Shown one piece after another: positions 2,810-64,000 of a stretch of 64,000 nucleotides of DNA (positions are counted from its first letter, which is position 1; each line of letters opens with the position of its first letter). The position numbers and the translations under genes were made by a program. Origin of the DNA: Palleronia sp. THAF1 (lineage in GTDB: Bacteria > Pseudomonadota > Alphaproteobacteria > Rhodobacterales > Rhodobacteraceae); contig NZ_CP045420.1 in the NCBI RefSeq assembly GCF_009363795.1, forward strand, positions 2,027,001 through 2,091,000. Direction: 5' to 3'. Below the pieces are notes generated by a model, which was given only the letters and a program-made list of their open reading frames with translations, ran no database searches and was not told where the DNA came from.

Positions 2810-2821
2810 GGCGAAAACCTC

Positions 2822-3562: not shown

Positions 3563-3580
3563 GCTGCATTCCTCCCTTTG

Positions 3581-3604: not shown

Positions 3605-3640
3605 GTGGCGTCAAGGTGAAAGACCGAAAGGCAAACCGCC

Positions 3641-4413: not shown

Positions 4414-4434
4414 CGGGCGTCGACGGGAGGATAC

Positions 4435-46937: not shown

Positions 46938-47726
46938 CTAGCAGGCCGCGACACCTCGCTTGGTCATCACCTTCACCAGATGCGCACGGTAGTCGCCCGT
47001 GCCGTGCAGGTCGGAGATCATGCCCGACCCGTCCGGCGTGGACAGACCGTCCACCGCATCCGCAGAGAAGTTCGACGACAGCGCCTCTTCCGCTTCGGTC
47101 CAGCGGAACACGCCGGACTCCGACGCGCCGGTGACGGCGACGCGCACGCCATCGGAGAACTTCGCCACGAACACAGCCGTCAGCGGGAAGCGAGAGGCAG
47201 GTTGGATGAACTTGGCGTAATTCGCCTTTTCCGGCACGGCCATCTTCACGGCGGTGATGATCTCGCCCTCTTCCAGAGCGGTCATGAACATGCCCTGGAA
47301 GTAGTCATCAGCTGCGATCTCGCGGGTGTTGGTCACGACCGTACCCTTGGATGCCAGCAGACCCGCCGGATAACAGGCAGACGGGTCGTTGTTCGCCAGC
47401 GATCCGCCGATGGTCCCGCGTGAGCGGACCGACGGATCGCCGATACGGCCCGCCAATGACGCCATCGCCGGATAGCTGTCCTTCAGCTCGCGCATCACGG
47501 TGGCGTGGGTGGTCGCGCCACCGATCCACAGCCCGTCACCTTCGGACTTCACGCCCTTCATCTCTTCGATGGCGGTCAGGCTGACCACTTTCGACGGCAT
47601 CGCCAGGCGCTGCTTCATCGTCGGCATGAGGGTCTGCCCACCCGAGAAAGCGATGGCCTCTTCGGTCTTCAGGGCCTCGACGGCAGCGTCAACGCTGGTG
47701 GGGCGCTCGAATTCGAAATTATACAT
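46938..47726 (-). CDS. coxM: CoxM-like FAD-binding subunit of molybdenum hydroxylase
   Basis: 262 aa medium subunit of the xanthine-oxidase/CO-dehydrogenase family. FAD-binding landmarks are FSGGQTLMPTMKQRL and TIGGSLANNDPSACYP, followed by GEIITAVKMAVP. Transfers electrons from CoxS iron-sulfur clusters to a quinone or other acceptor. Last gene of the coxGSLM order, 55 bp after coxL. Confidence 0.92.
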   Translation of the reverse strand: MYNFEFERPTSVDAAVEALKTEEAIAFSGGQTLMPTMKQRLAMPSKVVSLTAIEEMKGVKSEGDGLWIGGATTHATVMRELKDSYPAMASLAGRIGDPSVRSRGTIGGSLANNDPSACYPAGLLASKGTVVTNTREIAADDYFQGMFMTALEEGEIITAVKMAVPEKANYAKFIQPASRFPLTAVFVAKFSDGVRVAVTGASESGVFRWTEAEEALSSNFSADAVDGLSTPDGSGMISDLHGTGDYRAHLVKVMTKRGVAAC

Positions 47727-47781
47727 GTTGGATCCTATCCTCTTGTGGGGAAGCGGGGGCGGTCACGCCGCCCCCGATCCA

Positions 47782-50226
47782 TCATCCGGCTTGATCGACC
47801 GAGCGGCCTTCAGCTGTGTTCGTCGATCCGGCGGCGGGTTGCTCCGCCCCCATGTTCGAGCGCGCTCCGTTCATGGCGGCCCACACCCGGTCCGGGGACG
47901 CAGGCATGTTCAGGTGTGGCACGTCGTAGCCGCCCCGGTTCAGCGCATCGAGCACGGCATTGATGACCGCAGGGGGCGAACCGATGGCTCCGGCCTCGCC
48001 GCAACCCTTCACACCCAGCGGGTTGTGCGTGCAGGGCGTGACGCAAGAATGATCCACCTTGAACATCGGCAGGTCGGACGAACGCGGCATCGCGTAGTCC
48101 ATGTAGCTGGCAGAGATCAGCTGGCCGTCCGCATCATAGGCGCAGTTCTCCATCAGCGCCTGACCGATGCCCTGTGCCACACCGCCGTGCACCTGACCTT
48201 CGACGATCATCGGGTTGATGACGTTGCCGAAGTCGTCCGCAGCGGCAAAGGCCACGACGTCCACCTTGCCGGTCTCTTCGTCCACCTCGACCTCGCAGAC
48301 GTAGCCGCCAGAGGGGTAGGTAAAGTTGGCCGGGTCGTAGAACGCGGTTTCCTCTAGGCCCGGCTCGATGTCTTCAAGCGGGTAGTTGTGCGGCACATAG
48401 GCGGCCAGCGTCACATCACCCCACGCCACCGACTTGTCGGTGCCCGCAACGGTGAATGCGCCGTCCTTCAGTTCGATGTCGCCTTCAGAGGCTTCCATCA
48501 GGTGCGCCGCGATCTTCTTGGCCTTGTTGATGACCTTCTCGGCGGCACGAACCATGGCCGACCCACCGACCGCGATAGAGCGCGATCCGTAAGTGCCCAT
48601 GCCCATGGGCGTGCGGGCCGTATCGCCGTGGATGATATCGATCTGGTCGGGGTCGATCCCGATCATTTCGGAAATCACCTGTGCAAAGGTCGTCTCATGC
48701 CCTTGCCCGTGGCTGTGCGATCCGGTCATCACGCTGATCGAGCCGGTAGCATTTACCCGCACGGTAGCGGATTCGTACAGACCGGCACGCGCGCCCAACT
48801 GGCCCACAAGGTTCGACGGCGCGATGCCGCACGCCTCGATGTAGTGCGCCAGACCAAAGCCGCGCAGCTTGCCGTTCTTCTTCGACTCCTCGGCGCGCTT
48901 TTCGAAGTTGGCGTGATCCGTCATCTCCAGCACACGGTCCAGCGTCGCATGATAGTCGCCGGTATCGTACTCCACGGCCACGGGGGTGGCGTAGGGAAAC
49001 TCGGTGATGAAATTCTGGCGACGCAGCTCGATGGGTGAGACGCCCAGTTCACGCGCCGCTTGATCCACCACACGCTCCAACTGGAACGTCGCCTCGGGAC
49101 GGCCCGCGCCGCGATAGGCGTCGACCGGCACCGTGTTGGTGAAGACGGCCTTCACGTTCACGTAGATCAGCGGGGTCTTGTAGTTGCCCGCCATCAGAGT
49201 GCCGTGCAGCCATGTGGGGACCGAGGGCGCGAAGGTGGACAGGTAGGCGCCCATGTTCGCGTAGGTTTCCGTGCGCAGGGCGATGAAGTTGTTGTCCGCG
49301 TCCAGCGCCAGTTCGATCTTGGTCACGTGGTCACGACCGTGCGCGTCGGACATGAAGGCTTCCGAGCGGCTGGACGTCCATTTGACGGGCCGACGCAGGG
49401 CCTTGGCGGCGAAGGTGCAGAACGCCTCTTCCGCGTAGTGGAAAATCTTTGTGCCGAAGCCGCCGCCCACATCGGGGGCGACCACGCGCAGCTTGTGCTC
49501 GGGGATGCCCAACACGAAAGCGCCCATCAGCAGGCGGATGACATGGGGGTTCTGACTGGTCGTATACAGCGTGTATTCGTCCTGCGCAGGGTTCCAGTCG
49601 CCCACGGCGACGCGCGGCTCCATGGGGTTCGCAACCAGACGGTTGTTCACCAGTTCCAGCGTCGTGACGTGCGCGGCGTTCTTGATTGCGTCGTCCACTG
49701 CCTGCTTGTTGTCCTCGACGAAGCCCCAGTCGTAGCACAGGTTGCTGGTCAGATCGTCGTGCACCTTGGGCGCGCCGTCCTTGACCGCCTCCTTCATGTC
49801 GATAACGGCGGGCAGTTCTTCGATGTCCAGCTCGATCGCCTCGGCGGCGTCACGGGCCTGGGCGAGCGATTCTGCAACGACGACGGCGATGGGATCGCCC
49901 ACGTGGCGCACCTTGCCTTCGGCCAGCACGGGGTGCTTCGGCTCTTGCATGGGCTGGCCGTCGATGGACGTGATCTGCCATCCGCAGGGCACACCGCCCA
50001 CGCCTTCGAAGTCCTTCGATGTGAAGACTTTCACAACGCCGGGCATGGCTTCGGCAGCCTCGATCCCGATGTTGTTGATCTTTCCGTGCGCCACGTCAGA
50101 GCGCAGGAAGTAGGCGTAGGTCTGGTTGTGGATGTTGATGTCATCCGTGTACTGGCCAGTGCCTTGCAGGAACCGGACGTCTTCGCGACGCTTATTGGAT
50201 GCGCCGATGCCACCATCTTTGGGCAT
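47782..50226 (-). CDS. coxL: Form II CoxL-like molybdopterin-binding large subunit
   Basis: 814 aa catalytic subunit with the molybdenum-cytosine-dinucleotide sites [10 protein letters not shown] and [15 protein letters not shown]. The active-site loop reads AYRGAGR at residues 370-376, which defines form II; true CO dehydrogenase (form I) has AYxCSFR. Form II enzymes oxidise other substrates, often aldehydes or aromatic heterocycles. The neighbourhood of a PQQ alcohol dehydrogenase makes aldehyde oxidation a good guess. Confidence 0.92.
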
Positions 50227-50267
50227 GTTGATCTCCTCCCTAGTGGGGGTTCACCCCCCGAAGCTGT

Positions 50268-50750
50268 TTATTCCGCAGCGACCGCCTGAACGTCCTGTCC
50301 GGACGCGGCCATGATCGCCTTGATGATGTTGTGATAGCCCGTGCAGCGGCAGATGTTGCCTTCCAGATGGTGCCGAATCTCGGCTTCCGTGGGCTTGGGG
50401 TTGTCTTTCAGCAGCGCCGTCGCCGCCATTACCATGCCCGGCGTGCAGTAGCCGCATTGCAGGCCGTGGTAGTCCTGGAACGCCTGCTGCACTGTGTTCA
50501 ACGAGCCGTCCGCGTTCTGCATCGCCTCGATGGTCGTCACTTCGGACCCGTCAGCCTCTGCCGCGAGAACCGAGCAGGACTTCACCTGTTCGCCGTTCAT
50601 ATGAACCGTGCAGGCCCCGCACTGCGAGGTGTCGCAGCCCACGTGCGTTCCTGTCAGGCGAAGATCCTTGCGCAGGAAATCGACGAGCAGCGTGCGGCCC
50701 TCGATCTCTCCGGACACGGTCTTGCCGTTCACCTTCATCTCGATCTTCAT
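50268..50750 (-). CDS. coxS: CoxS-like [2Fe-2S] small subunit
   Basis: 160 aa. Two iron-sulfur domains: plant-ferredoxin-type cysteines in [15 protein letters not shown] and the helical-domain cysteines in [12 protein letters not shown] and CRCTGYHNI. Start at the ATG behind GGAGGAAT. Electron relay between CoxL molybdenum centre and CoxM FAD. Confidence 0.94.
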
Positions 50751-50776
50751 GTCATTCCTCCCGATCGTCGTATTTT

Positions 50777-51328
50777 CTAGGTAGCAGACCGCAGTCCGAA
50801 CCACTTGCGTTTCTTTGTCTCATCATTGCCGTCGACCTCTTCGGCGGTCGCGACGGCTTCCTGCGTGGGGCTGGCATCGGCGTCGCCACCCTCCACGCGC
50901 GTCTTGAAATCCTCGAAGAATTGGTCGGCCATCTTCTTGGCAAAGCCGTCGATGATCCGGCTGCCCAATTGCGCCAGCTTGCCGCCCACCTTCGCCTCGA
51001 CGTCGTAGTCCAGCCGCGTCTGGTTGGGCCCCTCTTCCGACAGCACGCATTTCGCGCCGCCCTTGGCAAAGCCTGCCGCGCCACCCTTGCCTTCGCCTTG
51101 CAAGTGCAGGCTTTCGGGCTCGTTCATGTCGGTCAGATTGACAGCGCCTTTGAACGTCGCCTTTACGGGGCCGACCTTCTGGACCACCGTTGCCTCGAAC
51201 CCGTCTTGCGGGTTTCCGTCCATCTCTGTGCAGCCGGGCACGCAATCCTTCAGCACGTCCTTGTCCAGAAGTGCGGCCCAGACGTCGGCGCGCGGGGCTT
51301 CGATGATGCGGTGTCCACTTAGTTCCAT
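50777..51328 (-). CDS. coxG: CoxG-like SRPBCC-fold membrane-recruitment protein
   Basis: 183 aa; SRPBCC domain across residues 1-145 ([41 protein letters not shown]), then an acidic linker. In Oligotropha CoxG anchors the enzyme to the membrane; here the final segment (KKRKWFGL) is short and basic. First gene of the operon, with a GACCAA promoter motif 56 bp upstream. Confidence 0.88.
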
Positions 51329-51409: not shown

Positions 51410-52303
51410 CTAGCGGTATTCCGGCGCAGTGTGCGTCAGACCGTAGCTTGCGTAAATCTCTTCGATGCGGCCAGAGGTCAGTGCCTCTCGCAGCGCGTCG
51501 TCCACCGTGTAGGCCAGCGGACGGTAGGCGAAGTGGACCCCCACGCCCAGCGTCCATTGCCCCCGTGCCAGCCCCGCCAGGGGCGGCTGGTGTATTCCGA
51601 TGCCATCGTCCGCGCCCCATTCCAGCTGCGCGCGTGGCCCCATCGCCGCCATAACCTCGCCTTCGGCCAATGCGTCCATGCCTTCGGCCAGTGTGGCAAA
51701 GCGACGAATGCCGGTGTTCAATTGTCCACCCGCGAAGTTCGACAGGTAGAAGTCCGACAGTGAGTCATTCTCGACCGCGACGGTGTCGAAGCGGAAATAG
51801 GCAGGGACCGGCTTTTCCTCTGGATACTCTGCCTCGGCATAGGCGATCGCGATGACCTCCTGCGCGTACTGCCCGGTGAAGACGACCTGCTCGACCCGGC
51901 AGGCATACGCACTGTCATAGGGCACGCGCATCATGACGTTGGACACTGCGCCGCCGACGATCCCGCCACGCCACACGTTGTTGCGCAGGTCGGCGTCCAG
52001 GTTTTCACCCGCGCCGACGAACCGATAGCGCGGCTCGACGCCCACGTAATCCGCGATCAGCGCCGCGATCTCGACATCCACGCCACGGGGCTGCCCGCCC
52101 TCTTCCCAGGAATAAGGTGGGAAGTCCTCGTATAGCGCGAAAGTCATCCACCCGCGCTCTACGATCGTATCCATGTCCTGCCCGACGATGTCGCGCCCGA
52201 CGTTCTGCGGTTTGGGCTGCGGCACGTAATCGGCGCAGGGGTCTTGCGCTGTGGCCGGGCCCGCAAGCCCGAGCGTCATCGCAACGAAAAGCGCCCGGAT
52301 CAT
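51410..52303 (-). CDS. MoxJ-like quinoprotein-associated periplasmic binding protein
   Basis: 297 aa, signal peptide ending ATAQ. Family-3 solute-binding fold with GQDMDTIVERGWMTFALYEDFPPYSWEEGG and DVEIAALIADYVGVEPRYR segments of the MoxJ/XoxJ type found only with PQQ alcohol dehydrogenases. XoxJ-type proteins are thought to help activate or assemble the dehydrogenase. Overlaps pedF (ATGA). Confidence 0.85.
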   Translation of the reverse strand: MIRALFVAMTLGLAGPATAQDPCADYVPQPKPQNVGRDIVGQDMDTIVERGWMTFALYEDFPPYSWEEGGQPRGVDVEIAALIADYVGVEPRYRFVGAGENLDADLRNNVWRGGIVGGAVSNVMMRVPYDSAYACRVEQVVFTGQYAQEVIAIAYAEAEYPEEKPVPAYFRFDTVAVENDSLSDFYLSNFAGGQLNTGIRRFATLAEGMDALAEGEVMAAMGPRAQLEWGADDGIGIHQPPLAGLARGQWTLGVGVHFAYRPLAYTVDDALREALTSGRIEEIYASYGLTHTAPEYR

Positions 52304-52983
52304 TGCGCGGAGGACAGCCCGACCGTCAGCGTCTCGGACGCCGTCTTGATCCCGGCCTGCGTACCGTCAAGCTGCTGACTGGCCCGCCAAGCGACAGAGT
52401 CGGCAACCGGCGCGCCCGACAGCGTTTCGATGTTCGCCGCGATGTCGTCCAGCTGCTGCTTGACCGCGTCCACGTCGCCCACGGCATTCGGATCATCGGC
52501 CCAGCGCACCAACTCGTCGCGGATCTGGCCCAGCGGCTCGCCATTATCGTCCACCATATCACCGTCGGCGCGCGTTTCGACGTAGGTACGGATGGCCCAA
52601 GCCGCCTCTTGACCCAGCAACTCTCCGAACGCGGGCATCTTGGTCGTGCCGTTCTGAGTCACGCCTTCGCGGAAGCGCTCGACATACCATTCGTCGCCAT
52701 ATTCCTCGGCTTCCAGATAGCGCAGATCGGGGGCCAGACCGCCCGATACCGCGCCCAGACCGTGACAGCGCGCGCAGTTCTGGTTGTAGCCCGAGGCGCC
52801 AATCTCAATCGCCTTCATCCACACCTCTTCACCCGCGGCTTCTACGCGGTAAGGGTTCTCGGTCAGCCAGTCCTCGCCCACCTCGGGCAAGGCGCTCGTG
52901 TCCACGGCTTGCGGGGTCACGTCGCCGTGGGCGTGGGCCATTCCGGCCAGAGCAAGGGCAAAAATTGCGGTCGTACGAAACAT
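52300..52983 (-). CDS. pedF: PedF-type cytochrome c550
   Basis: 227 aa. Signal peptide ends near AHAHG; HGDVTPQAVDTSALP and the haem site NQNCARCHGLGAVSGG (Cys70, Cys73, His74) match the PedF family, the electron acceptor of PQQ ethanol dehydrogenases. It has a longer helical C-terminus (residues 150-227) than ordinary class I c-cytochromes. The ATG with GGGAGG upstream was taken. Confidence 0.9.
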   Translation of the reverse strand: MFRTTAIFALALAGMAHAHGDVTPQAVDTSALPEVGEDWLTENPYRVEAAGEEVWMKAIEIGASGYNQNCARCHGLGAVSGGLAPDLRYLEAEEYGDEWYVERFREGVTQNGTTKMPAFGELLGQEAAWAIRTYVETRADGDMVDDNGEPLGQIRDELVRWADDPNAVGDVDAVKQQLDDIAANIETLSGAPVADSVAWRASQQLDGTQAGIKTASETLTVGLSSAQ

Positions 52984-53043
52984 CGGTATCCTCCCGGTAA
53001 AACTTGCTGGCACGTTACGGCGCGGCGCGGGGCAGACCTATTA

Positions 53044-53082
53044 GACCAAGGTGTCCAATCGGTCTGACACGGCCCGGACCAA
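53044..53082. promoter_or_regulatory. Paired GACCAA motifs in the pedF / ABC divergent promoter
   Basis: GACCAA at 53044 and 53077, exactly 33 bp apart (three turns). Between them GTGTC-N10-GACAC forms an inverted repeat at 53051-53070. The arrangement matches the exaF divergent promoter at 58616-58660. Confidence 0.55.
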
Positions 53083-53142
53083 AGTCGCATACCTGATGCG
53101 CGGGCCGGTGGTAGCGTCGGTGTTCAGGGAGGAGTTTTGCCG

Positions 53143-54294
53143 ATGCGCCTGTTGGTCATGATCACGCTATTGTGGGCCGGTCCCACCGCCGCGCAGGATG
53201 TCGCGCTGCACTACCTGCACGTACGCGTGCCGCAACCGCCCACCCTGTCCGCGCTCGACCCGATCCCGGAAGACCGCGGCATCGCAGGTGCGCAGCTTGG
53301 CGTAGACGACAACGCCACGACGGGCCGCTTCCTTGGCCAGACCTATACGCTGACCACATCCGACGTCGCGGTAGACGCTGACATCGCCGCCGCGGCCCGC
53401 ACGGCGCTTGCCGAGACCGATCTGCTGATCCTGGACGCGCCCCGCGATGCAGCCCTTGTCATCGCCGATCTGCCCGAAGCGGAAGACGCGTTGATCTTCA
53501 ATACCACCGCGCAAAACGTCGACCTGCGCGACGCCGCCTGCCGCGCCAACTTGCTGCACACCGCGCCCAGCCTTGCGATGCGCACCGACGCGCTGGCCCA
53601 GTTCTTCGTCACCCGCCGCTGGGACGATCTGGTGATGATCGCGGGCGGCGATCCGGGCGACCAAGCCTACGCGGCGGCGATGGAAACCTCGCTTACCAAA
53701 TTCGGACTGAAACTGGATGCCCGCAAGGAATGGCGGTTCGACGCCGACATGCGCCGCAACGCCAGCGCCGAAGTGCCGCTGTTCACGCAAGATTTCGGCG
53801 ACTACGATGTGCTGCTGATCGCTGACGAGCTTGGCGATTTCGGGCGCTACGTTCTTTACAACACATGGCTGCCCCGGCCCACCGCAGGCGGTGAAGGCCT
53901 CGTCGCCCAAGCCTGGGCTCCGGCCGTCGAGCAATGGGGTGCTGCGCAACTGCAATCGCGTTTCACCGATGCCACGGGCCGCAACATGACACCGGAAGAC
54001 TACGCCGCTTGGGCCGCCGTCCGCACGATTGGCGAGGCCGTGACCCGCACCAGTGCAACCGACGCCGCCGCCCTGCGCAGCTTCATCCTGTCAGCGGATT
54101 TCGAACTGGCCGGCTTCAAGGGCCGCCCCCTGACCTTCCGCGCGTGGAACGGCCAAATGCGCCAGCCCATCCCGCTCGTCCATCCGCGCGCCGTCGTCGC
54201 CACAGCACCGCTTGAAGGGTTCCTGCATCAACGCACGGAACTCGACACGTTGGGGCTGGACGAAGGCGACAGCGCCTGCACAGCCTTCGACTGA
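53143..54294 (+). CDS. PQQ-alcohol-system ABC substrate-binding protein (PedA1/A2-like)
   Basis: 383 aa with a signal peptide ending TAAQD. Belongs by its DVALHYLHVRVPQPPTLSA opening and VMIAGGDPGDQAYAAAMETS middle to the PQQ-dehydrogenase-associated receptor family (TIGR03863-like). The PedA1A2BC transporter of Pseudomonas putida takes up lanthanides. The ATG behind AGGGAGGAG replaces a TTG two codons earlier. First gene of a four-gene transporter operon. Confidence 0.85.
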   Translation: MRLLVMITLLWAGPTAAQDVALHYLHVRVPQPPTLSALDPIPEDRGIAGAQLGVDDNATTGRFLGQTYTLTTSDVAVDADIAAAARTALAETDLLILDAPRDAALVIADLPEAEDALIFNTTAQNVDLRDAACRANLLHTAPSLAMRTDALAQFFVTRRWDDLVMIAGGDPGDQAYAAAMETSLTKFGLKLDARKEWRFDADMRRNASAEVPLFTQDFGDYDVLLIADELGDFGRYVLYNTWLPRPTAGGEGLVAQAWAPAVEQWGAAQLQSRFTDATGRNMTPEDYAAWAAVRTIGEAVTRTSATDAAALRSFILSADFELAGFKGRPLTFRAWNGQMRQPIPLVHPRAVVATAPLEGFLHQRTELDTLGLDEGDSACTAFD

Positions 54295-54306
54295 AAGGGC
54301 CAAACG

Positions 54307-55269
54307 ATGATCCGCACACTGCTTTGCACCACGCTTCTAGGCACGCCCGCCTTGGCCGACGAAATCTGGGTGACGAATGAAAAAGACAACACGATTAGCG
54401 TGATCGACATCGATACGCTGGAAGTCACGCGCACCATCGAAACCGGTGAGCGCCCCCGCGGCATCACCTTCGCCCAAGACTATTCGGTCGTCTACGTCTG
54501 TGCCTCCGACAGTGACGCGGTGCAGGTGATCGACCCCGACACAGGCGAGATCCTGCACGATCTTCCCTCTGGTGAAGACCCCGAGCAATTCGCCCTGCAC
54601 CCGGATAACCGCCGCCTCTACATCGCGAATGAGGACGATGCGATCACGACGGTCGTGGATACCGAAACCCGCGAAGTCATCGCGCAGATCGATGTCGGGA
54701 TCGAGCCTGAAGGCATGGCCGTCAGCCCCGATGGCACCATCGCGATCACCACTTCCGAAACGACCAACATGGCCCATTGGATCGACACGGACACGCAAGA
54801 GCTTTTCGCCAACACCTTGGTCGACAGCCGCCCCCGCCACGCCGAATTCGTCAAGGACGGCGCAGAGATGTGGGTCTCATCCGAGATCGGCGGAACGATC
54901 AGCGTGTTCGACGTGGAAACCCAGGCGGAACTGGCAAAGATCGACTTCGACCTGCCGAACATCCACCCGGACCGCGTCCAGCCCGTAGGCTTTGAGTTGA
55001 CACCGGACGAGGCCACAGCCTTCGTCGCCCTTGGCCCGTCGAACCACGTCGCCGTGGTGAATGCGCAGACCTACGAGGTCGAGGACTACATCCTCGTCGG
55101 TCGTCGTGTCTGGCACATGGCCTTCAACGGGGACGGCACGCAGTTGTTCACGACCAATGGGATCTCCGGCGACGTGACCGTCATCGACGTGGACAGCCGC
55201 AAGGCCGTGAAGACGATCAAGGTAGGACGCTTCCCATGGGGGGCGGCCTACCGGCCCACGTCCGGCTGA
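54307..55269 (+). CDS. YVTN beta-propeller protein of PQQ-alcohol system
   Basis: 320 aa, signal peptide ending ALAD. Repeats with the form IWVTNEKDNTISVIDIDTLE, LYIANEDDAITTVVDTETRE and MWVSSEIGGTISVFDVETQA make a seven-bladed propeller (TIGR03866-like). Paired with ABC transporters in PQQ-ethanol islands. Could be one of the PedA components, binding or presenting cargo. Confidence 0.86.
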   Translation: MIRTLLCTTLLGTPALADEIWVTNEKDNTISVIDIDTLEVTRTIETGERPRGITFAQDYSVVYVCASDSDAVQVIDPDTGEILHDLPSGEDPEQFALHPDNRRLYIANEDDAITTVVDTETREVIAQIDVGIEPEGMAVSPDGTIAITTSETTNMAHWIDTDTQELFANTLVDSRPRHAEFVKDGAEMWVSSEIGGTISVFDVETQAELAKIDFDLPNIHPDRVQPVGFELTPDEATAFVALGPSNHVAVVNAQTYEVEDYILVGRRVWHMAFNGDGTQLFTTNGISGDVTVIDVDSRKAVKTIKVGRFPWGAAYRPTSG

Positions 55270-55357
55270 TGGCACATATCGCGCAAATCGGTTCCAGATC
55301 TGGTTCTTACATCACCCGAAACTTGATCATTTCGCGCATGTTCGGCCACGTCACCTC

Positions 55358-56074
55358 ATGACCGGGCTGCGCGTCGATGATCTCTCCTTCGCCTACGGCG
55401 CGAAACAGGCGCTGGATAAGGTCAGCCTTCGTGCGAAACCGGGCAGCTTCACCGCCCTCCTCGGCCCAAACGGCGCAGGTAAGTCCACCCTCTTCGCGCT
55501 GCTCACCCGCCTCTTCACCACCCGCAATGGATCGATTCACATCGCGGGTCACGACCTGCAACGCGCGCCGCTCAAAGCCCTCGGCGCACTCGGCGTCGTG
55601 TTCCAGCAATCGACGCTCGACCTTGATCTGACCGTCCAACAGAACCTCGCCTATTTCGCAGCCCTTCATGGCCTGACGCCCATCGCCGCCAAACCGCGCA
55701 TCGCCGCCAGCCTCGACCGCCTTGGCATGGCCGAACGCGCCCATGAAAAGGTGCGCGCCTTGAACGGCGGTCACCGGCGACGGGCCGAAATCGCGCGCGC
55801 GCTTCTCCACGACCCAAAGGTTCTGCTGTGCGACGAGCCGACGGTCGGCCTTGACGCCGCCGCGCGCGCGGCGATCACCGACCACGTCCATGCCCTCGCG
55901 GCCTCTGGCATCTGCGTCCTTTGGGCGACGCACCTGACGGACGAGGTCCGCCCCGACGATCACCTGATCATCCTGCACCAAGGCCGCATCCTGCGCGACG
56001 GCACCACCAAAGAGATCGCCGCCGACCAGCCCCTCTCCGACACCTTCCTGTCGCTCACGGCCGCCCCCGCATGA
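55358..56074 (+). CDS. pedB: PedB-like ABC transporter ATPase
   Basis: 238 aa. Walker A LGPNGAGKSTLF, signature altered to LNGGHRRRAEIARALL (NGGHR in place of SGGQ/SGGM), Walker B LLCDEPTVGLD. Belongs to the family TIGR03864 of PQQ-alcohol islands. Works with the permease 55 bp downstream; the gap holds a dispersed repeat. Confidence 0.88.
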   Translation: MTGLRVDDLSFAYGAKQALDKVSLRAKPGSFTALLGPNGAGKSTLFALLTRLFTTRNGSIHIAGHDLQRAPLKALGALGVVFQQSTLDLDLTVQQNLAYFAALHGLTPIAAKPRIAASLDRLGMAERAHEKVRALNGGHRRRAEIARALLHDPKVLLCDEPTVGLDAAARAAITDHVHALAASGICVLWATHLTDEVRPDDHLIILHQGRILRDGTTKEIAADQPLSDTFLSLTAAPA

Positions 56075-56076
56075 TG

Positions 56077-56100
56077 CTTCTTTGTTTTCAAAAATACTCA
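56077..56100. repeat. Dispersed CTTCTTTGTTTT...AATACTCA motif between pedB and pedC
   Basis: Begins two bases after the pedB stop and lies inside the operon. Reverse complement TGAGTATTTTTGAAAACAAAG closely matches the 24-kb arms. Confidence 0.7.
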
Positions 56101-56129
56101 AAGCCTGCCCGCGATGCAGGGTGCGCGGC

Positions 56130-56918
56130 ATGAAATACCTCACCGCCCTTGCGGCCATCGTCGCGCGCGAAGCGCTGCGGTTCGTCCATCAACGCGAACG
56201 CTTCCTTGCCGCCTTGGTCCGCCCCCTCGTCTGGCTGCTGGTCTTCGCCGCGGGCTTTCGGGCGGCCCTAGGTCTGTCCATCACGCCGCCCTACCAGACC
56301 TACATCACCTACGAGACCTACATCGTTCCGGGCCTGTGCGGCATGATCCTGCTGTTCAACGGAATGCAGTCGTCGCTCAGCCTTGTCTACGACCGTGAGA
56401 TGGGGTCGATGCGGCTGCTGTTGACCGCCCCGCTGCCGCGCTGGTGGCTACTTCTGTGCAAACTGATCGGAGCAACCGCGATCTCGATCCTGCAGGTCTA
56501 CGCATTCCTCTTCATCGCCTGGCTCTTCGATATCACGCTGCCGGGCTGGGGCTACGTGACGGTCCTGCCCGCACTGATCCTCGCGGGTCTCATGCTAGGC
56601 GCGCTGGGCCTTGCGCTGTCATCTTTCGTTAAGCAACTGGAAAACTTCGCGGGCGTGATGAACTTCGTGATCTTCCCGATGTTCTTTCTTAGCTCCGCCC
56701 TCTATCCCCTTTGGAAGATGGCAGAATCCTCACCGCTCTTGCGCGACATCTGCCTGGCCAACCCCTTCACCCACGCGGTCGAACTGATCCGCTTCGCCCT
56801 GTATGTCGAGCTGAACCCATGGGCGTTGCTCTGGACCCTGCTGGCGACACTCGCCTTCGGCCTGTTGGCGATCTGGGGATACGATCCGGCGCGCGGTCTG
56901 GTGCGGCGCAAGGGCTGA
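56130..56918 (+). CDS. pedC: PedC-like ABC-2 permease
   Basis: 262 aa. ABC-2 type with six helices; landmarks MQSSLSLVYDREMGSMRLLL and PLYPLW-like SSALYPLWKMAES and NPFTHAVELIRF. Member of the PedC family (TIGR03861). The ATG giving MKYLTALAAIV was preferred to an upstream frame running through the repeat. Ends tail-to-tail with the ATPase gene at 56919, with no terminator between. Confidence 0.87.
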   Translation: MKYLTALAAIVAREALRFVHQRERFLAALVRPLVWLLVFAAGFRAALGLSITPPYQTYITYETYIVPGLCGMILLFNGMQSSLSLVYDREMGSMRLLLTAPLPRWWLLLCKLIGATAISILQVYAFLFIAWLFDITLPGWGYVTVLPALILAGLMLGALGLALSSFVKQLENFAGVMNFVIFPMFFLSSALYPLWKMAESSPLLRDICLANPFTHAVELIRFALYVELNPWALLWTLLATLAFGLLAIWGYDPARGLVRRKG

Positions 56919-57593
56919 CTAACGGCTTGCGATCTCGCCCAGTTTCGGCGCGTTGCGGCGGTCGGACGCGATGCGGGCGGGTGGGCCGCCGAGTGTGATC
57001 ACGCGGGTCGCCAACCGCTCGGCCTCTGCTTCCACATGGGTCACCAGAAGCGTCGCGACACCCGTTTCATGCTTCAACCGCGTGAACAGCGTCATCATTT
57101 CGTCCACCAGCACCGGGTCCAGCGAGACGAATGGTTCGTCCATCAGCAAAAGCGACGGGCGCGCGGCGAAGGCGCGGGCCAATGCAAGGCGCCGTTGCTG
57201 ACCAAGCGAGAGTTGCAGCGGGAACGCCTGCCCGCGACCCATCAAGCCGACTGAGTCCAGCAGGTCCAACGCACCGTCCCGGCCAATTCCAGTGGGGATC
57301 GTCAGGTTCTGCAAGCAGGTCCGCCACGGCAGCAGCGTCGGCTCTTGGAAGATGACTGACGTCGTGCCCCGCGCGTCGATGCGCCCGCGATACCCGGTCT
57401 CCAGTCCTGCGATGCAACGCAGAAGCGTCGTCTTGCCGATGCCGGACGGTCCGACCAGCGCGACTGTCTCGCCCGGAGCCAAGTCAAAGGCGACATTGGC
57501 AAGCACGTCCGTGCCGTCATACCGCAGACCGTCCAGCGCGACCGACAGGATCGGTCGCGCCTTTTCGGCTGGATCGGGCACGGCCCTTAGCAC
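56919..57593 (-). CDS. NitT/TauT-type ABC ATPase
   Basis: 224 aa, GTG start. Walker A GPSGIGKTTLLRCIAG, Q-loop FQEPTLLPWRT, signature LSLGQQRRLALARAF, Walker B LLLMDEPFVSLD. The PTLLPW segment is typical of nitrate/sulfonate transporters. Directly follows the binding-protein gene; matching permease is missing here and is proposed to be the one at 43023-43796. Confidence 0.88.
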   Translation of the reverse strand: MLRAVPDPAEKARPILSVALDGLRYDGTDVLANVAFDLAPGETVALVGPSGIGKTTLLRCIAGLETGYRGRIDARGTTSVIFQEPTLLPWRTCLQNLTIPTGIGRDGALDLLDSVGLMGRGQAFPLQLSLGQQRRLALARAFAARPSLLLMDEPFVSLDPVLVDEMMTLFTRLKHETGVATLLVTHVEAEAERLATRVITLGGPPARIASDRRNAPKLGEIASR

Positions 57594-58565
57594 CTAGCTG
57601 CCCGGCTGCAGGAAGGTGCCTTCGGGCAGGCTTGTGGCTTCGCCCACCAATTCTTCGCCGCCCAGTTCCGCCATCAAAGACAGCATCGTGTTCGCGGCGT
57701 CTTCATCTACCGGCCCCTCTGCCGGGATCCCGGCGCGGAAGCCCGCGACGAGCGCTTCGAACTGCGCGTCGGTGTCGGCATTCATCTTGGGGCGCAGCGC
57801 CTCCCATGCCGCGTCATCTCCGGCCAACAGATCTTTAGCGTCGCGGCTGGCCGCCGCCAAGCCGTTCACCAGATCGGGGTTCTGCTCGAGCATTTCGCCC
57901 TTCACGACGTAGCCGAGCAACGGCGTCTCCGGGTCCAGCCCCATGGCTTCGGCGGCATCCGCGATGTCGATGATCTTGCGCATCCCGTCCGCTTCCATCT
58001 TCGCCATGAAGTGCCAGTAGTTGATGGCCCCCGCGAAATCGCCGCCCGTCGCCGTTTTGTAGATCAGCGGGGGTGCGCCGTAGACCTGCTCGGTCTCGCC
58101 CGCCAGATCGAAGCCCAACTCACGCTGCGCATAGGCCTGCAGGATCAGCCAGGATTTATCCAGCGGTCCGCCCGCGATACCAATCTTGCCGCCCGCCAGG
58201 TCCGCGAGTGTCTGCGCCTCGCTGCCTTCGGGCACCATCACGCCGCCCACGGCCTTGGAATAGGGGATGAACACGTAGTCGCGCCCTGCCGCCCGCTGCC
58301 GCGCCACCCACAGCCAGTCGGACACGATCACATCGGTCTCTCCGCCTTGGAACGCGATCTCACCGGCAGAGCCGCTGGCCACGCCGTTCACGTCCAGATC
58401 AAAGCCGTTCGCGGTGTCGAAGCCGTTTTCGGTGATCGTCGTCAGCTCCCAGTTCACCGTGCCGAACTTCAGCACCGAGGCTTTCAGAACGGGCAGATCC
58501 TGCGCGACCGCCGTACCCGTCAAAACCAGTGCCATCGCAGCACCGCCCAAGAATTTCATGAACAT
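57594..58565 (-). CDS. NitT/TauT-type periplasmic substrate-binding protein
   Basis: 323 aa. Signal peptide ending AVAQ; SBP_bac_11-type fold with KFGTVNWELTTITENGFD, GGETDVIVSDWLWVARQR and KIGIAGGPLDKSWLILQAYA. Ligand unknown; divergent from the lanthanide-type alcohol dehydrogenase, so it may import an alcohol-related substrate, cofactor precursor or metal complex. ATG with GGGAGGA 6 bp upstream. Confidence 0.86.
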   Translation of the reverse strand: MFMKFLGGAAMALVLTGTAVAQDLPVLKASVLKFGTVNWELTTITENGFDTANGFDLDVNGVASGSAGEIAFQGGETDVIVSDWLWVARQRAAGRDYVFIPYSKAVGGVMVPEGSEAQTLADLAGGKIGIAGGPLDKSWLILQAYAQRELGFDLAGETEQVYGAPPLIYKTATGGDFAGAINYWHFMAKMEADGMRKIIDIADAAEAMGLDPETPLLGYVVKGEMLEQNPDLVNGLAAASRDAKDLLAGDDAAWEALRPKMNADTDAQFEALVAGFRAGIPAEGPVDEDAANTMLSLMAELGGEELVGEATSLPEGTFLQPGS

Positions 58566-58615
58566 TGCGTCCTCCCGTTTGGAGCCACCCTGCCCCCGCA
58601 TGCGCCAACCCGGAA

Positions 58616-58660
58616 TACGACCAATGGGGGGGCCGCTTTGGCCCGTCCTACGACCATTGG
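58616..58660. promoter_or_regulatory. Paired TACGACCAWTGG sites in the exaF divergent promoter
   Basis: TACGACCAATGG at 58616-58627 and TACGACCATTGG at 58649-58660, 33 bp apart; the CCAATGG and CCATTGG ends are each other's reverse complements. Between them GGGCC-N5-GGCCC. Matches the 33-bp spacing in the pedF promoter. Likely binding sites for the island's LuxR-type regulator. Confidence 0.6.
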
Positions 58661-58757
58661 CCAATTCAGATGACGCTGCGTCTGTCAGAAGGTCGTGACG
58701 GGTCACTGTGCCAGCCGGACGGGCGACGGCGCGGATCCACAACAGGGAGGATACCGA

Positions 58758-60527
58758 ATGAACCGCTTCGTCCTGGCCGTCTGCGCCAGCCTAATTGCCC
58801 CCGGTGCCGTCTTGGCGCAGGGCGTCACCGAAGAGATGATCGCGAACGACGCCGCGACGCCCGAAGACATCCTGACCAACGGCATGGGCCGCAGCCTTCA
58901 GCGCTACAGCCCGCTGGAGACGCTGAACAAGGAGAACGTCGCGAACCTGGTGCCCGCATGGGCCTTCTCGCTCGGTGGCGAAAAACAGCGGGGGCAGGAA
59001 ACCCAACCGCTGATTCATGACGGCATCATGTATATCACCGGGTCCTATTCGCGTCTTTACGCGCTGGACGCGATGACCGGCGAAGAGCTGTGGCAGTACG
59101 ACGCCCGCCTACCCGAGGGTATCCTGCCCTGCTGTGACGTGGTGAACCGCGGCGCGGCGATCTTTGAGGACAAGGTCATCTTCGGCACGCTGGACGCGCG
59201 TCTGGTGGCGCTGGATGCCAAGTCCGGCGACGTGGTCTGGCGCGACAAGATCGCCGACTACAAGGCGGGCTATTCCTATACGGCAGCCCCCATGATCGTG
59301 AATGGCCTGGTCATCACCGGCAATTCCGGCGGCGAATTCGGGGTGGTCGGTGAAATCCAGGCCCGCGATGCAAGCACTGGCGAGATGAAGTGGACCCGCC
59401 CCGTGATCGAGGGCCACATGGGCACGCTAGACGGTGAAGAGTCGACCATGACGGGAGAGTTGAACGCCACATGGCCGGGCGACATGTGGAAAACCGGCGG
59501 CGGGGCGACCTGGCTTGGCGGTTCCTACGACGACCGCACCGACACTATCATCATGGGCACGGGCAACCCAGCCCCCTGGAACAGCCACCTGCGCGGCGCA
59601 GGCCAGCCCAGCGAAGACGGCATGGGCGACAACCTATATGCCGCCTCGCGCCTTGGGATCGATCCCGCTACGGGCGAGATCAAGTGGCACTTCCAGTCCA
59701 CCCCGCGTGAAGGCTGGGACTACGACGGTGTGAACGAAGTCGTCGCGTTCGAAGGCGAAGACGGTACGCCTTTGCTTGCCACCGCAGACCGCAACGGGTT
59801 CTTTTACGTGCTGAACGCGGAAGACGGCAGCTTCGTCTCGGCCGCGCCTTTCGTGAAGGACATCACCTGGGCCGAAGGTATCGACGAGAACGGACGCCCG
59901 ATCTTCGTCGAAGAAAACCGCCCCGGCGATCCCTCTGCCGCTGCCGATGGCAACAAGGGAGAGATCGTCTTCTCCAGCCCCGGCTTCCTGGGTGGCAAGA
60001 ACTGGATGCCGATGGCCTACAGCCAGAACACCGGCCTCTTCTACGTGCCCTCCAACGAGTGGGGCATGGATATCTGGAACGAGCCCATCACCTACAAGAA
60101 GGGCGCGGCCTACCTGGGTTCGGGCTTCACCATCAAGCCCAACTACGAAGACCACATCGGTTCGCTCAAGGCCATCGACCCGGCCACTGGCGAGTGGGTG
60201 TGGGAGTTCAAGAACGACGCCCCGCTCTGGGGTGGCGTGATGACGACCGCGGGCGGTCTTGTCTTCACCGGCACGCCCGAAGGCAAGTTCATCGCGTTCG
60301 ACGACGAGACGGGCGAAGAGCTTTGGTCCTTCCAGACCGGTTCCGGCATCGTCGGTCAGCCCGTTACCTGGGAGCAGGACGGCGAGCAGTATGTCTCTGT
60401 CATCTCCGGCTGGGGCGGCGCTGTTCCGCTATGGGGCGGTGAGGTCGCCAAGAAGGTGAACTACTTGAACCAGGGCGGCCTGCTCTGGACGTTCAAACTG
60501 CCCCGCCAGCTGGCGTCGGCACAGTAA
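58758..60527 (+). CDS. exaF: Lanthanide-type PQQ alcohol dehydrogenase (ExaF/PedH-like)
   Basis: 589 aa periplasmic eight-bladed quinoprotein. Signal peptide to AQ21. Adjacent Cys125-Cys126 (LPCCDVV) form the disulfide ring over PQQ. Metal ligands: Glu193 in GGEFG, Asn270 in GTGNP, catalytic Asp321 in GWDYDGVN, plus Asp323 two residues on, diagnostic for lanthanide (not calcium) use. [12 protein letters not shown] and [13 protein letters not shown] blocks place it with ethanol rather than methanol dehydrogenases. GGGAGG precedes the ATG. Confidence 0.92.
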
Positions 60528-60560
60528 GGGCTTCTCCCTGCCGGGCAACCGGCCCTTTTG

Positions 60561-60591
60561 GCGGCGCATCGCAAGATGTGCCGCTTTTTTT
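60561..60591 (+). terminator. Terminator after exaF
   Basis: Nine-bp stem GCGGCGCAT/ATGTGCCGC (one G-U) with loop CGCAAG and a run of seven T's. It separates exaF from the regulator operon. Confidence 0.85.
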
Positions 60592-60664: not shown

Positions 60665-61348
60665 ATGATGCAGAACCAGACCGCCCCGACCCATCCGCAA
60701 CGCGCGCTTGTCATCGACGACCATCCGATGTTCTGCGACGCGCTGGAACTGACCCTGCGCAATGCCGCCGCGTTCGAGGACGTGGCCACAGCCGACAGTC
60801 TGACGACCGGGTTGGAGGTGCTCAGCCGGGATGGCCCACGTGACCTGATCGTGCTGGACCTGAACCTGCCAGATGTGTCTGGCTTCGACGGACTGATCCG
60901 TATGCGCACGCAGGCCCCGGACACCCCCGTCATCGTCGTGTCCTCCATGGCCGAGAACGCGATCATCAGTGCGGCCATCGACGCCGGGGCCTCTGGCTAC
61001 GTGCCCAAGCACGCCCCCCACTCGGAATTTCGCGCAGCCCTCGACGCCATCGCGCAGGGCAGCACTTACCTGCCCGAGCAATACGTTGAATGCCCCCAGC
61101 CATCGGACCGCGCCGATGCCGTGACGCGCCTGCGCTCATTGACCGCGCAGCAGGCCCGCATTCTGGAACTGATCTGCGACGGCAAGCTGAACAAGCAGAT
61201 CGCCTTCGACCTGTCGATTGCCGAGACCACGGTGAAAGCCCACGTCACCGCGATCATGCGCAAGCTGGCGGTGCAGTCCCGCACGCAGGCCGTTCTGGTC
61301 GCGCAGCAGGCCAAGTTCGCGGCGATCTTGCCAAGCGCCGACGCCTGA
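60665..61348 (+). CDS. LuxR/NarL-family response regulator
   Basis: 227 aa. Receiver domain with acidic pocket LVIDDHP and phosphoacceptor Asp65 (LIVLDLNLPDVSG), then a LuxR helix-turn-helix (LTAQQARILELICDGKLNKQ, TVKAHVTAIMRKL). Relatives AgmR/ErbR and ExaE control PQQ ethanol oxidation in Pseudomonas. First gene of a regulator operon with a FIST protein and a histidine kinase; plausible binder of the GACCAA sites. Confidence 0.88.
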   Translation: MMQNQTAPTHPQRALVIDDHPMFCDALELTLRNAAAFEDVATADSLTTGLEVLSRDGPRDLIVLDLNLPDVSGFDGLIRMRTQAPDTPVIVVSSMAENAIISAAIDAGASGYVPKHAPHSEFRAALDAIAQGSTYLPEQYVECPQPSDRADAVTRLRSLTAQQARILELICDGKLNKQIAFDLSIAETTVKAHVTAIMRKLAVQSRTQAVLVAQQAKFAAILPSADA

Positions 61349-61374
61349 CACATCCTTCCCCCAGGGAGGATCGC

Positions 61375-62541
61375 GTGACAGCGCAGAATTCGCACATTGT
61401 CGCGGAGCAACCCGGCTTTGCCGGCCTGCTGTCGCGCGCCTGCGTTCCGGCTGACGCCGGGATCGGCGCGCTTGTGGAAGCGCTTGGCCCCAAGCCACTG
61501 GCGCACCTGTTCCTCTTCGTCTCTCCGGAAGCCGACTTCCACGCGCTGATCGCAGAAGCCCGCAAAGCGTTCCCCGACACGACTCTGACCGCCTGCACCA
61601 CCGCCGGAGAGATCGGACCGGCGGGTTACACCGAAAACACCATCGTCGCCCTTGGTCTGCCCCGCGCGCATTTCGCGACGCGCACGATCCTGGCCGAACC
61701 CTTGCAGGCGTTGGACATTGCGGCGGTTGCAGATGCCGTGGTGCGTGCCCGGATGGCACTGGTGGAAGATGCCCCGCAGTTCGCGACCACCTTTGCCTTC
61801 GTCATGATCGACGGCCTTTCGTTGCGTGAAGATTCGCTTTTGGCGGCTCTTGCCCCCTCGCTTGGGGCCATGCCGATCTTCGGCGGCTCGGCTGGCGACG
61901 GTCGGACCTTTGCGCAAACGCTCGTCGCACATGACGACGCAATCCACACCGACGCGGGCGTCTTGACGCTGATCGCAACCGATGCCCGCGCCCATGTCTT
62001 CAGCCTTGACCACATGACCCCGACCGAAACGCGCATGGTCGTGACCGACGCCGATCCAGAGGCGCGCATTGTCCGCCGGATTAACGGCGCACCCGCCGCT
62101 GCCGAATACGCCCGCATCGTCAACCGCGATCCCGGCCAGTTGGACAGTTTTACCTTCGCCGCCCACCCTGTGGTCGTGCGCATGGGCGAACGGCACCACG
62201 TTCGCTCGATCCAGCGGGTGACACCGGACGGCGCGCTAATCTTCTTTTCGGCCATCGACGAAGGCATGGTTCTGTCCGTCGCCACGTCAGAGCCGATCGC
62301 GGCCCATCTGGACCGTGAACTCGCATCCCTGGCCATGGGCGATCAGATGCCCGACATCATCGCCTGCGACTGCATCCTGCGCCGGATCGAAGCCGAGGAG
62401 CATCAGCAAAGCCGCTCTGTCAGCGATGTGCTGGCGCGCTACGGCGCAACCGGCTTTTCGACCTATGGCGAACAAATCGGGCGCATGCACATAAACCACA
62501 CCATGACGGGCGTCGCCCTTTATCCCCCCGAACCACGATGA
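61375..62541 (+). CDS. FIST-domain sensory protein
   Basis: 388 aa from the GTG behind GGGAGGA, 26 bp after the regulator. FIST_N with CTTAGEIGPAGYTENTIVAL and FIGGSAGDG-like IFGGSAGDGRTFAQT, then FIST_C with RIVRRINGAPAAAEYARIV and FSTYGEQIGRMHIN. FIST proteins bind small ligands and feed a partner kinase. Overlaps the kinase gene (ATGA). Confidence 0.88.
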   Translation: MTAQNSHIVAEQPGFAGLLSRACVPADAGIGALVEALGPKPLAHLFLFVSPEADFHALIAEARKAFPDTTLTACTTAGEIGPAGYTENTIVALGLPRAHFATRTILAEPLQALDIAAVADAVVRARMALVEDAPQFATTFAFVMIDGLSLREDSLLAALAPSLGAMPIFGGSAGDGRTFAQTLVAHDDAIHTDAGVLTLIATDARAHVFSLDHMTPTETRMVVTDADPEARIVRRINGAPAAAEYARIVNRDPGQLDSFTFAAHPVVVRMGERHHVRSIQRVTPDGALIFFSAIDEGMVLSVATSEPIAAHLDRELASLAMGDQMPDIIACDCILRRIEAEEHQQSRSVSDVLARYGATGFSTYGEQIGRMHINHTMTGVALYPPEPR

Positions 62542-64000
62542 CCAACACCTCTGCCTTGATCGACAACTCTGAACCGCTGGAGCAGCAGAACGCCCGCCTC
62601 GTGCAGATCGCCGACGCACTGATGCGCAAGGTCGAGCGCGGCGAAGGCCCCGACGGTCTGGCCTACGCAGAGTTCGAGCGCGCGGCCCTTCTGGAAGCGC
62701 AGGTGCGCCAGCGGACGACTGATCTGGAACGCACACTGCAGCTGCTGCACACAGCCAACGCCGCCGCCGAGACCGCCCGTTCCAACCTTGCCGAAGCGGT
62801 CGAGTCCTTCTCGGAAGGCTTTGCGCTGTTCGATCAGGACGACCGGCTGGTTATGACCAACTCGCGCTTCTGCCGCGACCTGCGCGACGTGGCCCCGCGG
62901 GTCGAGCCGGGCCTTGCCTTCGCCGACTACGTCGCCCTTGTGTCGCGCTCGATCTACCTTGATCTGTCGGACGATGGCAGCGCCACCGACTGGCGTCGAC
63001 ACCGGCTGGAACGCCACGCCGACACCAGCACCGTCTTCAACGTCCGCCTGACCCGCGACCGTTGGCTTCAGGTCGGCGAACACCGGACCGCATCCGGCGG
63101 CACCGTCATCCTGCAAACAGACGTGTCGGACATCATGCGCGCAGAACGCGCCAAGCGTGACCGGATCATGGACGAGCAGGCGCAGATGGTGCGCGCCACG
63201 CTCGATCACCTGAACCAGGGCGTGTGCATCTTCGACAATCGCCGCCGGCTGGCGGGATGGAACCGCCGAATGGAGATGTTGCTGGATCGCCCCTTCGACG
63301 GCCACGTCATCGGCATCAGCTTCGACGCGCTGCTGGCGCGGCTGGACGAGCAGATCAAGTTTTCCGGCCTCTTCACCCGCGATCACCTGATGACCTGGGC
63401 GCGCAACACACGCCCTCGACGCCCGATCAGCTTTGAAGTGGCGCGTGGCACCGACGATGTACTGTCCGTCTTCGCGCAGGAACTGCCGGATCAGGGCTTC
63501 GTGATCTCGTTCACCGACGTTTCCGCCGAACGCGCAGCCGAACGCGCCTTACGCGACATGAACGAGACGCTGGAGCGCCGCGTCGCAGATCGCACCGAAG
63601 AGCTGGGCGATGCGCTGGAGGAAGCGCGCCGGGCCAACCGATCCAAAACGCGCTTCGTTGCCGCCGCCGGTCACGACCTTTTGCAACCCCTTTCGGCGGC
63701 CAAGCTGTTCGTGTCCTATCTGGAAGAGCACGCCGACACCGATCTTGGTCGCAGCACCGCGACCAAGGCCGTCTCGGCGCTGGCTTCCGTCGAAGACATC
63801 ATCGAGGCGCTGCTGGACATCTCGAAGTTGGACTCCGGGCAGGCCGTGATGACCGTGCAGGACGTGCAGCTTGGCCGCATCCTGTCGTCCCTGCGCACCG
63901 AACTGACCCCGGCGGCAGAGGCGAAGGGCCTGGATCTGCGCATCGTCGACAGCACCCGAACCGTCCGCTCCGACCCGGTCTTCCTGCGCCGCATCCTGCA
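62538..64000 (+). CDS. PAS-domain histidine kinase (3' end outside the window)
   Basis: At least 487 aa visible. No membrane segment: N-terminal coiled coil (about 10-90), two PAS domains (about 85-200 and 210-345), a second coiled coil (about 345-370) and HisKA with phosphoacceptor His379 in AAGHDLLQPLSAAKLF. This H-box type occurs in soluble NahK/ErcS'-like kinases, one of which helps control ethanol oxidation in Pseudomonas aeruginosa. HATPase domain, and a receiver if hybrid, lie beyond the edge. Confidence 0.85.
   Translation, partial: MTNTSALIDNSEPLEQQNARLVQIADALMRKVERGEGPDGLAYAEFERAALLEAQVRQRTTDLERTLQLLHTANAAAETARSNLAEAVESFSEGFALFDQDDRLVMTNSRFCRDLRDVAPRVEPGLAFADYVALVSRSIYLDLSDDGSATDWRRHRLERHADTSTVFNVRLTRDRWLQVGEHRTASGGTVILQTDVSDIMRAERAKRDRIMDEQAQMVRATLDHLNQGVCIFDNRRRLAGWNRRMEMLLDRPFDGHVIGISFDALLARLDEQIKFSGLFTRDHLMTWARNTRPRRPISFEVARGTDDVLSVFAQELPDQGFVISFTDVSAERAAERALRDMNETLERRVADRTEELGDALEEARRANRSKTRFVAAAGHDLLQPLSAAKLFVSYLEEHADTDLGRSTATKAVSALASVEDIIEALLDISKLDSGQAVMTVQDVQLGRILSSLRTELTPAAEAKGLDLRIVDSTRTVRSDPVFLRRIL

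Follow-up and report, generated by a model that had tools for sequence, protein, structure and literature searches.

The 64-kb stretch of Palleronia sp. THAF1 DNA analysed here (hereafter the window) contains, at 51410-60591, a block of genes that is probably a ped/lut-type cluster for lanthanide-dependent alcohol oxidation, equipped with a PqqT-type importer of pyrroloquinoline quinone (PQQ) and adapted to a bacterium that does not make this cofactor. The gene content of the block, the homologies of its products, the lack of PqqE and PqqC in the genome and the distribution of these genes among relatives were computed here. Both strands of the block were read, and the encoded proteins were compared with NCBIfam and Pfam profiles, the curated cut-offs of NCBIfam being applied. 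Its genes, together with a distant permease gene discussed with them, are as follows:

51410-52303, minus strand: PedG-like periplasmic solute-binding protein, in the position of PedG (SBP_bac_3, 33 bits)
52300-52983, minus strand: PedF cytochrome c550, the likely electron acceptor (TIGR04494, 197 bits, cut-off 122)
53137-54294, plus strand: PedA1-type binding protein (TIGR03863, 473 bits, cut-off 414)
54307-55269, plus strand: PedA2-type beta-propeller (TIGR03866, 517 bits, cut-off 287)
55358-56074, plus strand: PedB-type ATPase (TIGR03864, 345 bits, cut-off 302)
56130-56918, plus strand: PedC-type ABC-2 permease (TIGR03861, 444 bits, cut-off 241; also DrrB, 120 bits, and PF01061)
56919-57593, minus strand: predicted ATPase of the PqqT transporter, NitT/TauT type (SsuB/TauB-like, 133 bits, below cut-off)
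57594-58565, minus strand: putative PqqT-type PQQ-binding protein, divergent from the dehydrogenase gene (phmmer match to PqqT chains)
58758-60527, plus strand: PQQ alcohol dehydrogenase of PedH/ExaF type (TIGR03075, 771 bits, cut-off 480; lanthanide signature WDYDGVN)
43023-43796, minus strand: probable permease of the PqqT transporter (SsuC-like, 80.6 bits, below cut-off; divergent from a NosR-like gene)

The ATP-binding cassette (ABC) transporter at 56919-58565 was missed by the original prediction, although it lies inside the block. Its binding protein matches the PqqT chains 9b1u and 9b1v (phmmer E 1.6e-64 over 293 residues, 40% identity), which a figure legend identifies as PqqT with PQQ (PMC12828617). 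With an AlphaFold2 model of the protein (mean predicted local distance difference test score, pLDDT, 92.6; 25 sequences) as query, Foldseek ranks crystal structures of the PqqT-PQQ complex first to third at a query template-modelling (TM) score of 0.89-0.91, while the other 47 matches listed reach at most 0.76; the PDB titles of the top matches name PqqT with PQQ, in one case with gadolinium (Gd). By sequence and by fold, PqqT is thus the closest of the solved structures. PqqT of Methylorubrum extorquens is periplasmic, binds PQQ with a dissociation constant of 50 nM and aids PQQ capture (PMC12124388). All 49 aligned sequences, that of PqqT among them, keep the lysine found at position 115 of the PqqT chain. 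This residue may correspond to the published Lys142; residue 142 is not Lys in the chain numbering, which the title of the Y161W entry fits, and the sources may differ in their numbering.

The permease of this transporter would lie apart from the other two components. Gene neighbourhoods were compared over stretches of up to 20 kb around PedC in 90 further genomes and in the window (91 stretches). An ATPase gene lies no more than 2.5 kb from the binding protein gene in 46 of the 48 stretches that hold the latter (window included), and a relative of the 43023-43796 permease does so in 19 of these 48. Among the 20 stretches that bear a NosR-like gene (window included), the permease is present in 12 of 14 from genomes with PqqT and in 0 of 6 from genomes without; over all 91 stretches, a permease-like match is found for 30 of the 64 genomes that have PqqT and for 1 of the 27 that lack it. 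Because its presence tracks PqqT across the stretches, we assign the product of 43023-43796 to the PqqT transporter as its probable permease.

The genome (3.34 Mb, 2 contigs, 99.99% complete) does not appear to be that of a PQQ producer. A genome-wide search found no PqqE (best match 47.7 bits, cut-off 381) and no match to PqqC, and it is on these two proteins that the judgement is made, PqqA, PqqB and PqqD not having been searched. Nor is there a pqq gene in the 20 kb to the right of the window, the content of which looks like housekeeping by reading of the genes. The original prediction had described enzyme, electron acceptor and lanthanide importer united in one block: the clustering is borne out, but the organism does not look self-sufficient, the genome having neither PqqE nor PqqC, and the PqqT-type transporter had been overlooked.

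The dehydrogenase gene, with a likely ATG start at 58758 preceded by GGGAGG, encodes a protein whose nearest solved relatives are 6zcw (824 bits) and 6zcv (823 bits), followed by 1flg (678 bits); 6zcw is a quinoprotein ethanol dehydrogenase, which we take to be PedH of Pseudomonas putida. In the motif WDYDGVN, we take the first D to be the catalytic Asp and the second to be the extra Asp from which lanthanide dependence is predicted. A D two residues after the first Asp is present in 62 of the 64 genomes of the window's family, Rhodobacteraceae, in which the dehydrogenase was read, the remaining two being unreadable at this point. The extra Asp has been used to predict lanthanide dependence (PMC12628762), and that of the present enzyme, recognized as ExaF-type with the extra Asp from the outset, is well predicted. 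It is the only protein of the genome over the TIGR03075 cut-off (the two further matches reach 29 and 20 bits), so no calcium-type partner and no XoxF of this family is seen; the earlier statement that a calcium-type homolog is lacking therefore extends, for this family, to the whole genome. The cytochrome was likewise correctly named as PedF.

All four components of a PedA1A2BC/lut-type transporter exceed their family cut-offs and stand in operon order on the plus strand (53137-56918), the PedC stop codon abutting that of the convergent ATPase gene of the second transporter. Together with PedF they account for the five models that the original prediction had named, all of which score above the curated cut-offs. 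Among 295 family genomes searched (PedC over cut-off in 91, PqqE in 62, the dehydrogenase in 89, the window's PqqT-type binding protein in 69 at a threshold of 200 bits), PedC and dehydrogenase occur together in 85, PedC alone in 6, the enzyme alone in 4 and neither in 200; with this co-occurrence, the island is not a chance assemblage. The metal specificity and transport direction of PedA1A2BC would be those described for P. putida and M. extorquens (PMC6839425, PMC7391723), from which they are carried over by analogy. For the PedA1-type protein, the presumed lanthanide-binding component, a sequence search of solved structures at E 1 yielded no relative.

The protein at 51410-52303 corresponds to PedG by position. 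It had been labelled MoxJ-like, a label that did not stand: the NCBIfam library holds MoxJ models, and no MoxJ-named model matches at E 0.01, leaving only SBP_bac_3. Its predicted model (pLDDT 81) resembles amino-acid-binding proteins in fold, and neither among the best 50 of 1939 Foldseek matches, mostly amino-acid-binding proteins, nor among the listed sequence matches does a MxaJ or XoxJ occur, so that nothing beyond the solute-binding fold speaks for membership in the MoxJ/MxaJ/XoxJ group. PedG of P. putida is described in a 2026 review as a protein of the amino-acid-binding type, likened to XoxJ/MxaJ by structure (PMC12997753); because of this likeness, a functional resemblance of the present protein is possible, short of membership.

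Within the family, the PqqT-type protein is nearly universal in enzyme-bearing genomes that lack PqqE. Of 89 enzyme-positive genomes, 33 lack a PqqE match above the cut-off, and 28 of these 33 have a completeness of 95% or higher. At a threshold of 200 bits, the binding protein is present in 31 of the 33, against 33 of the 56 that have PqqE (Fisher p 4.5e-4); raising the threshold to 300 bits gives 30 of 33 and 29 of 56. Conversely, the enzyme is present in 64 of the 69 genomes in which the binding protein reaches 200 bits. PqqC over cut-off was found in none of the 33 PqqE-less genomes, the three control genomes all being positive; one of the 33 (G119, 78% complete) contains fragments of PqqE and PqqC and may be a producer, and another (G226) matches PqqC at 49 bits. 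A scan of species genomes for the binding protein, from which the best 80 of 426 loci were kept (a sample selected by similarity and hence not unbiased), returned, by title, mostly Rhodobacteraceae, together with Roseibium and Pelagibius-labelled records. In 69 of these best 80 the locus includes a dehydrogenase that is more than 60% identical, and 67 of these 69 enzymes carry D at the second position. Among 38 records of named isolates or strains chosen from the best 80, at least some of which are also among the 295 family genomes, 27 have no PqqE over cut-off (completeness not given), including those of Palleronia pontilimi, Palleronia salina, Jannaschia aquimarina, Roseibium album, three Litoreibacter species and two Pelagimonas species.

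The association is clearest in clusters of the present composition. PedG, PedF and PedC are found in one stretch in 48 of the 91 genomes, and in these 48 (the window's included) PqqT accompanies all 22 that lack PqqE and 12 of the 26 that have it (p 2e-5). On a concatenated tree of the same 48 clusters, a subset picked after the neighbourhoods had been seen and including the window's genome, 11 independent pairs differ in PqqE, of which 5.0 differ in PqqT in the same direction, 0.0 in the opposite direction and 6.0 not at all; with the roles reversed, 7 pairs differ in PqqT, PqqE being lacking with PqqT in 4.9 and against it in 0.0. A genome of the same genus (G066) has both PqqE and PqqC. It shares the surroundings of the locus (CoxMLSG 76-89% identical; PedB, PedC and the regulators 62-79%) and retains remnants of the PqqT transporter (an ATPase piece of 67 residues and parts of the permease in more than one frame, L103 5599-16637), while its 20-kb stretch was found to contain no PedG, PedF, PedA1, PedA2, binding protein or ExaF-type enzyme; its sole enzyme over cut-off, on another contig, is XoxF-like (37% identical). 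This state fits a PQQ transporter that is dispensable to a producer.

Several observations weigh against this interpretation. Two family genomes (G205 and G217) have the enzyme and neither PqqE nor PqqT (200 bits), and the 43 stretches outside the PedG-PedF-PedC set show no association (PqqT in 8 of 12 without PqqE and in 22 of 31 with it). The sign test on the cluster tree is only suggestive (median p 0.06 in each direction), and on the poorly resolved PedC tree (91 rows, 13 of 88 inner branches starred) the independent-pairs test is flat, with 2.1 of 9 pairs in the same direction, 2.1 in the opposite and 4.8 without difference. G066 is no clean test, because enzyme and transporter were lost together. 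The probable permease lies about 13 kb from its presumed partner genes. Moreover, since the enzyme acts in the periplasm, there is no evident reason for PQQ to enter the cytoplasm; the same difficulty, the inward carriage of a cofactor that is used in the periplasm, arises with both transporters.

Outside the family, the association is reversed. In a set of 235 genomes across the class Alphaproteobacteria, with three from the window's family as far as its listing shows (the window's genome among them), 50 have the enzyme and 40 have PqqE over cut-off, while 25 have the binding protein (E 1e-20). With the window's genome excluded, PqqT is present in 2 of the 20 enzyme-positive genomes that lack PqqE and in 18 of the 29 that have it (p 3e-4), and one of the 2 exceptions (G340) contains a PqqE fragment of 275 bits. 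A universal rule that PqqT replaces PQQ synthesis was therefore rejected. Because of this opposite association, PqqT appears to be in general more a companion of PQQ producers, as in M. extorquens, and it is in the window's family that nearly all non-producers have it, most clearly where the cluster includes PedF and PedG. In a post hoc comparison of class genomes with the enzyme, the best enzyme frame is at least 694 residues long (stop to stop) in 17 of 18 lacking both PqqT and PqqE and in 1 of 18 having both, which suggests, from frame length, that the long frames outside the family encode quinohemoprotein dehydrogenases.

In the proposed mechanism, the periplasmic PedH/ExaF-like dehydrogenase would oxidize alcohols with a lanthanide-PQQ cofactor and pass electrons to PedF, while the lanthanide would be handled by PedA1A2BC. 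External PQQ would be captured in the periplasm by the PqqT-type protein, working with the ATPase encoded at 56919-57593 and the permease encoded at 43023-43796; the ligand, its transport and the need for external PQQ are here what we infer. The original prediction had noted the lack of a visible TonB receptor, which is true of the block, where there is no receptor beside the transporter as in LutH-type uptake. Genome-wide, there is a single PF00593 match (G000:C1:1710902-1712152), of siderophore type (TIGR01783, 289 bits, cut-off 223.5) and adjoined by an ATPase that also looks siderophore-type by reading. As this is the only TonB receptor, PQQ would cross the outer membrane through porins or by some other route; PqqU was considered for this step and rejected, the one receptor being only weakly PqqU-like (best local match to Escherichia coli PqqU 42 bits).

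Other explanations differ in which part of this scheme they dispute. PedA1A2BC might be an exporter or a periplasmic assembly machine, which would leave the PqqT interpretation intact: PedC belongs to ABC-2 families and also matches DrrB (120 bits) and NodJ, and the holoenzyme is periplasmic. We consider this rather unlikely in view of the La (lanthanum) that piles up in the periplasm of M. extorquens lutA, lutE and lutF mutants (PMC7391723) and of the roughly 100 times higher La requirement of a P. putida pedA1A2BC deletion (PMC6839425). It is somewhat less probable still that pqq genes exist and are absent from the assembly, for example on a plasmid, with PqqT merely recapturing PQQ as proposed for the producer M. 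extorquens. Roseobacters often carry plasmids, PqqE lies on a 106-kb contig in a family genome of 7 contigs (G229), and PqqT also occurs in the 33 of 56 PqqE-positive enzyme genomes counted above; against a missed replicon stand the near-complete two-contig assembly, the completeness of 28 of the 33 PqqE-less family genomes and the uniform lack of PqqC over cut-off in these 33 beside its detection in every control. A further idea, on balance improbable, is that PQQ is imported as a lanthanide-PQQ complex, so that the PqqT transporter, with its genes beside or within the Ped operon, would scavenge metal and cofactor together and PQQ would double as a lanthanophore. It would fit the gene order binding protein, permease, ATPase, PedB, PedC on one strand, with no other queried gene between, found in eight relatives (L075, L082, L093, L126, L132, L137, L139 and L158), and would fit the PDB title that records PqqT crystallized with PQQ and Gd.

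That the block is a self-sufficient island for ethanol oxidation, with PedA1A2BC as its sole special uptake system (the version originally put forward), is very unlikely: all PedA1A2BC and PedF models pass and the co-occurrence of permease and enzyme is near perfect, but the genome has neither PqqE nor PqqC, and a PqqT-type binding protein with its ATPase sits within the block. Least probable of all is that the NitT/TauT-type transporter carries another ligand, such as a sulfonate or thiamine precursor, and is placed here for other reasons. Generic profiles rank the binding protein with NMT1/THI5, taurine and sulfonate proteins, and at 40% identity the ligand is not proven by sequence; yet PqqT structures are its sole close matches among the 50 listed, the enzyme accompanies it in nearly all family genomes that have it, and the Lys115 position is kept throughout the alignment. 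Adaptation of the cluster to a PQQ non-producer is accordingly the explanation that we prefer.

The locus resembles the ped cluster of P. putida KT2440 (PMC12997753) in enzyme type, PedF, a PedG-like protein, the four transporter components and related regulators, and differs from it in having no calcium-type PedE partner, in the addition of a PqqT transporter and in a genome where neither PqqE nor PqqC was detected. It shares an ABC transporter of the same kind with the lut cluster of M. extorquens AM1 (LutA, LutB, LutE and LutF; PMC7391723), which is described as similar to pedA1A2BC (PMC6839425); unlike the lut cluster, the block contains no TonB receptor, and while AM1 has its own pqq genes (PMC7391723), PqqE and PqqC were not found in the present genome. 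The likeness to AM1 PqqT (PDB 9b1u, 9b1v and 9ooz) extends to the identity and TM scores given above, but that protein was described in a producer (PMC12124388, PMC12828617), whereas the present one occurs in an apparent non-producer, its gene divergent from that of the dehydrogenase. Like PqqU of E. coli, a TonB-dependent PQQ receptor, the transporter would serve a PQQ non-producer, although an outer-membrane route of the PqqU kind was not found in this genome.

The ped and lut systems and PqqT are already in print, as are lanthanide enzymes in Roseobacters (PMC5934484) and in the ocean (PMC11996626). In a literature search, with most subscription papers outside its reach, PqqT transporters were not seen to be reported from members of this family that do not make PQQ. 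In a 2025 survey, PqqU was found in one alphaproteobacterial case only, and Alphaproteobacteria were inferred to be likely mainly PQQ producers and not scavengers (PMC12124388); in the window's family, more than one-third of the enzyme genomes show no PqqE over cut-off (33 of 89), all but two of them with a PqqT homolog. If the proposed interpretation is true, these bacteria must scavenge both a metal and a cofactor in order to oxidize alcohols with lanthanides; PQQ would then be a shared good, and the PqqT transporter a route invisible to PqqU surveys.

The genes that flank the block on both sides include:

43883-46000, plus strand: NosR-like membrane iron-sulphur protein (NosR model, 446 bits, below the cut-off of 1000)
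45997-46839, plus strand: ApbE-type flavin transferase, adjoining the NosR-like gene (PF02424, 118.6 bits)
60665-63998, plus strand: regulators, namely a LuxR-type response regulator, a NosP/FIST protein and a NahK/ErcS-type kinase that runs off the window

The NosR-like gene is found in 20 of the 91 stretches, all 20 with PedG and either with or without PqqT, and is accompanied by the ApbE-type gene in 19 of them; the pair may serve this type of dehydrogenase in electron transfer or assembly. CoxM/CoxL/CoxS/CoxG-like genes, named by reading, lie between this pair and PedG (46938-51328), and CoxL is present in 29 of the 91 stretches round PedC. The regulators all score below cut-off (ErdR 178 bits, cut-off 390; NosP 354 bits, cut-off 450; NahK 199 bits, cut-off 1500, for a truncated protein). 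In many relatives, a response regulator, a NosP-like FIST protein and a NahK/ErcS-type kinase follow the dehydrogenase, resembling the regulators of Pseudomonas ped/exa systems. Farther to the left in the window, the genes at 6-5496 and 14467-16023, read from the list of open reading frames, are presumably sulphur-oxidation genes and an alkaline phosphatase.

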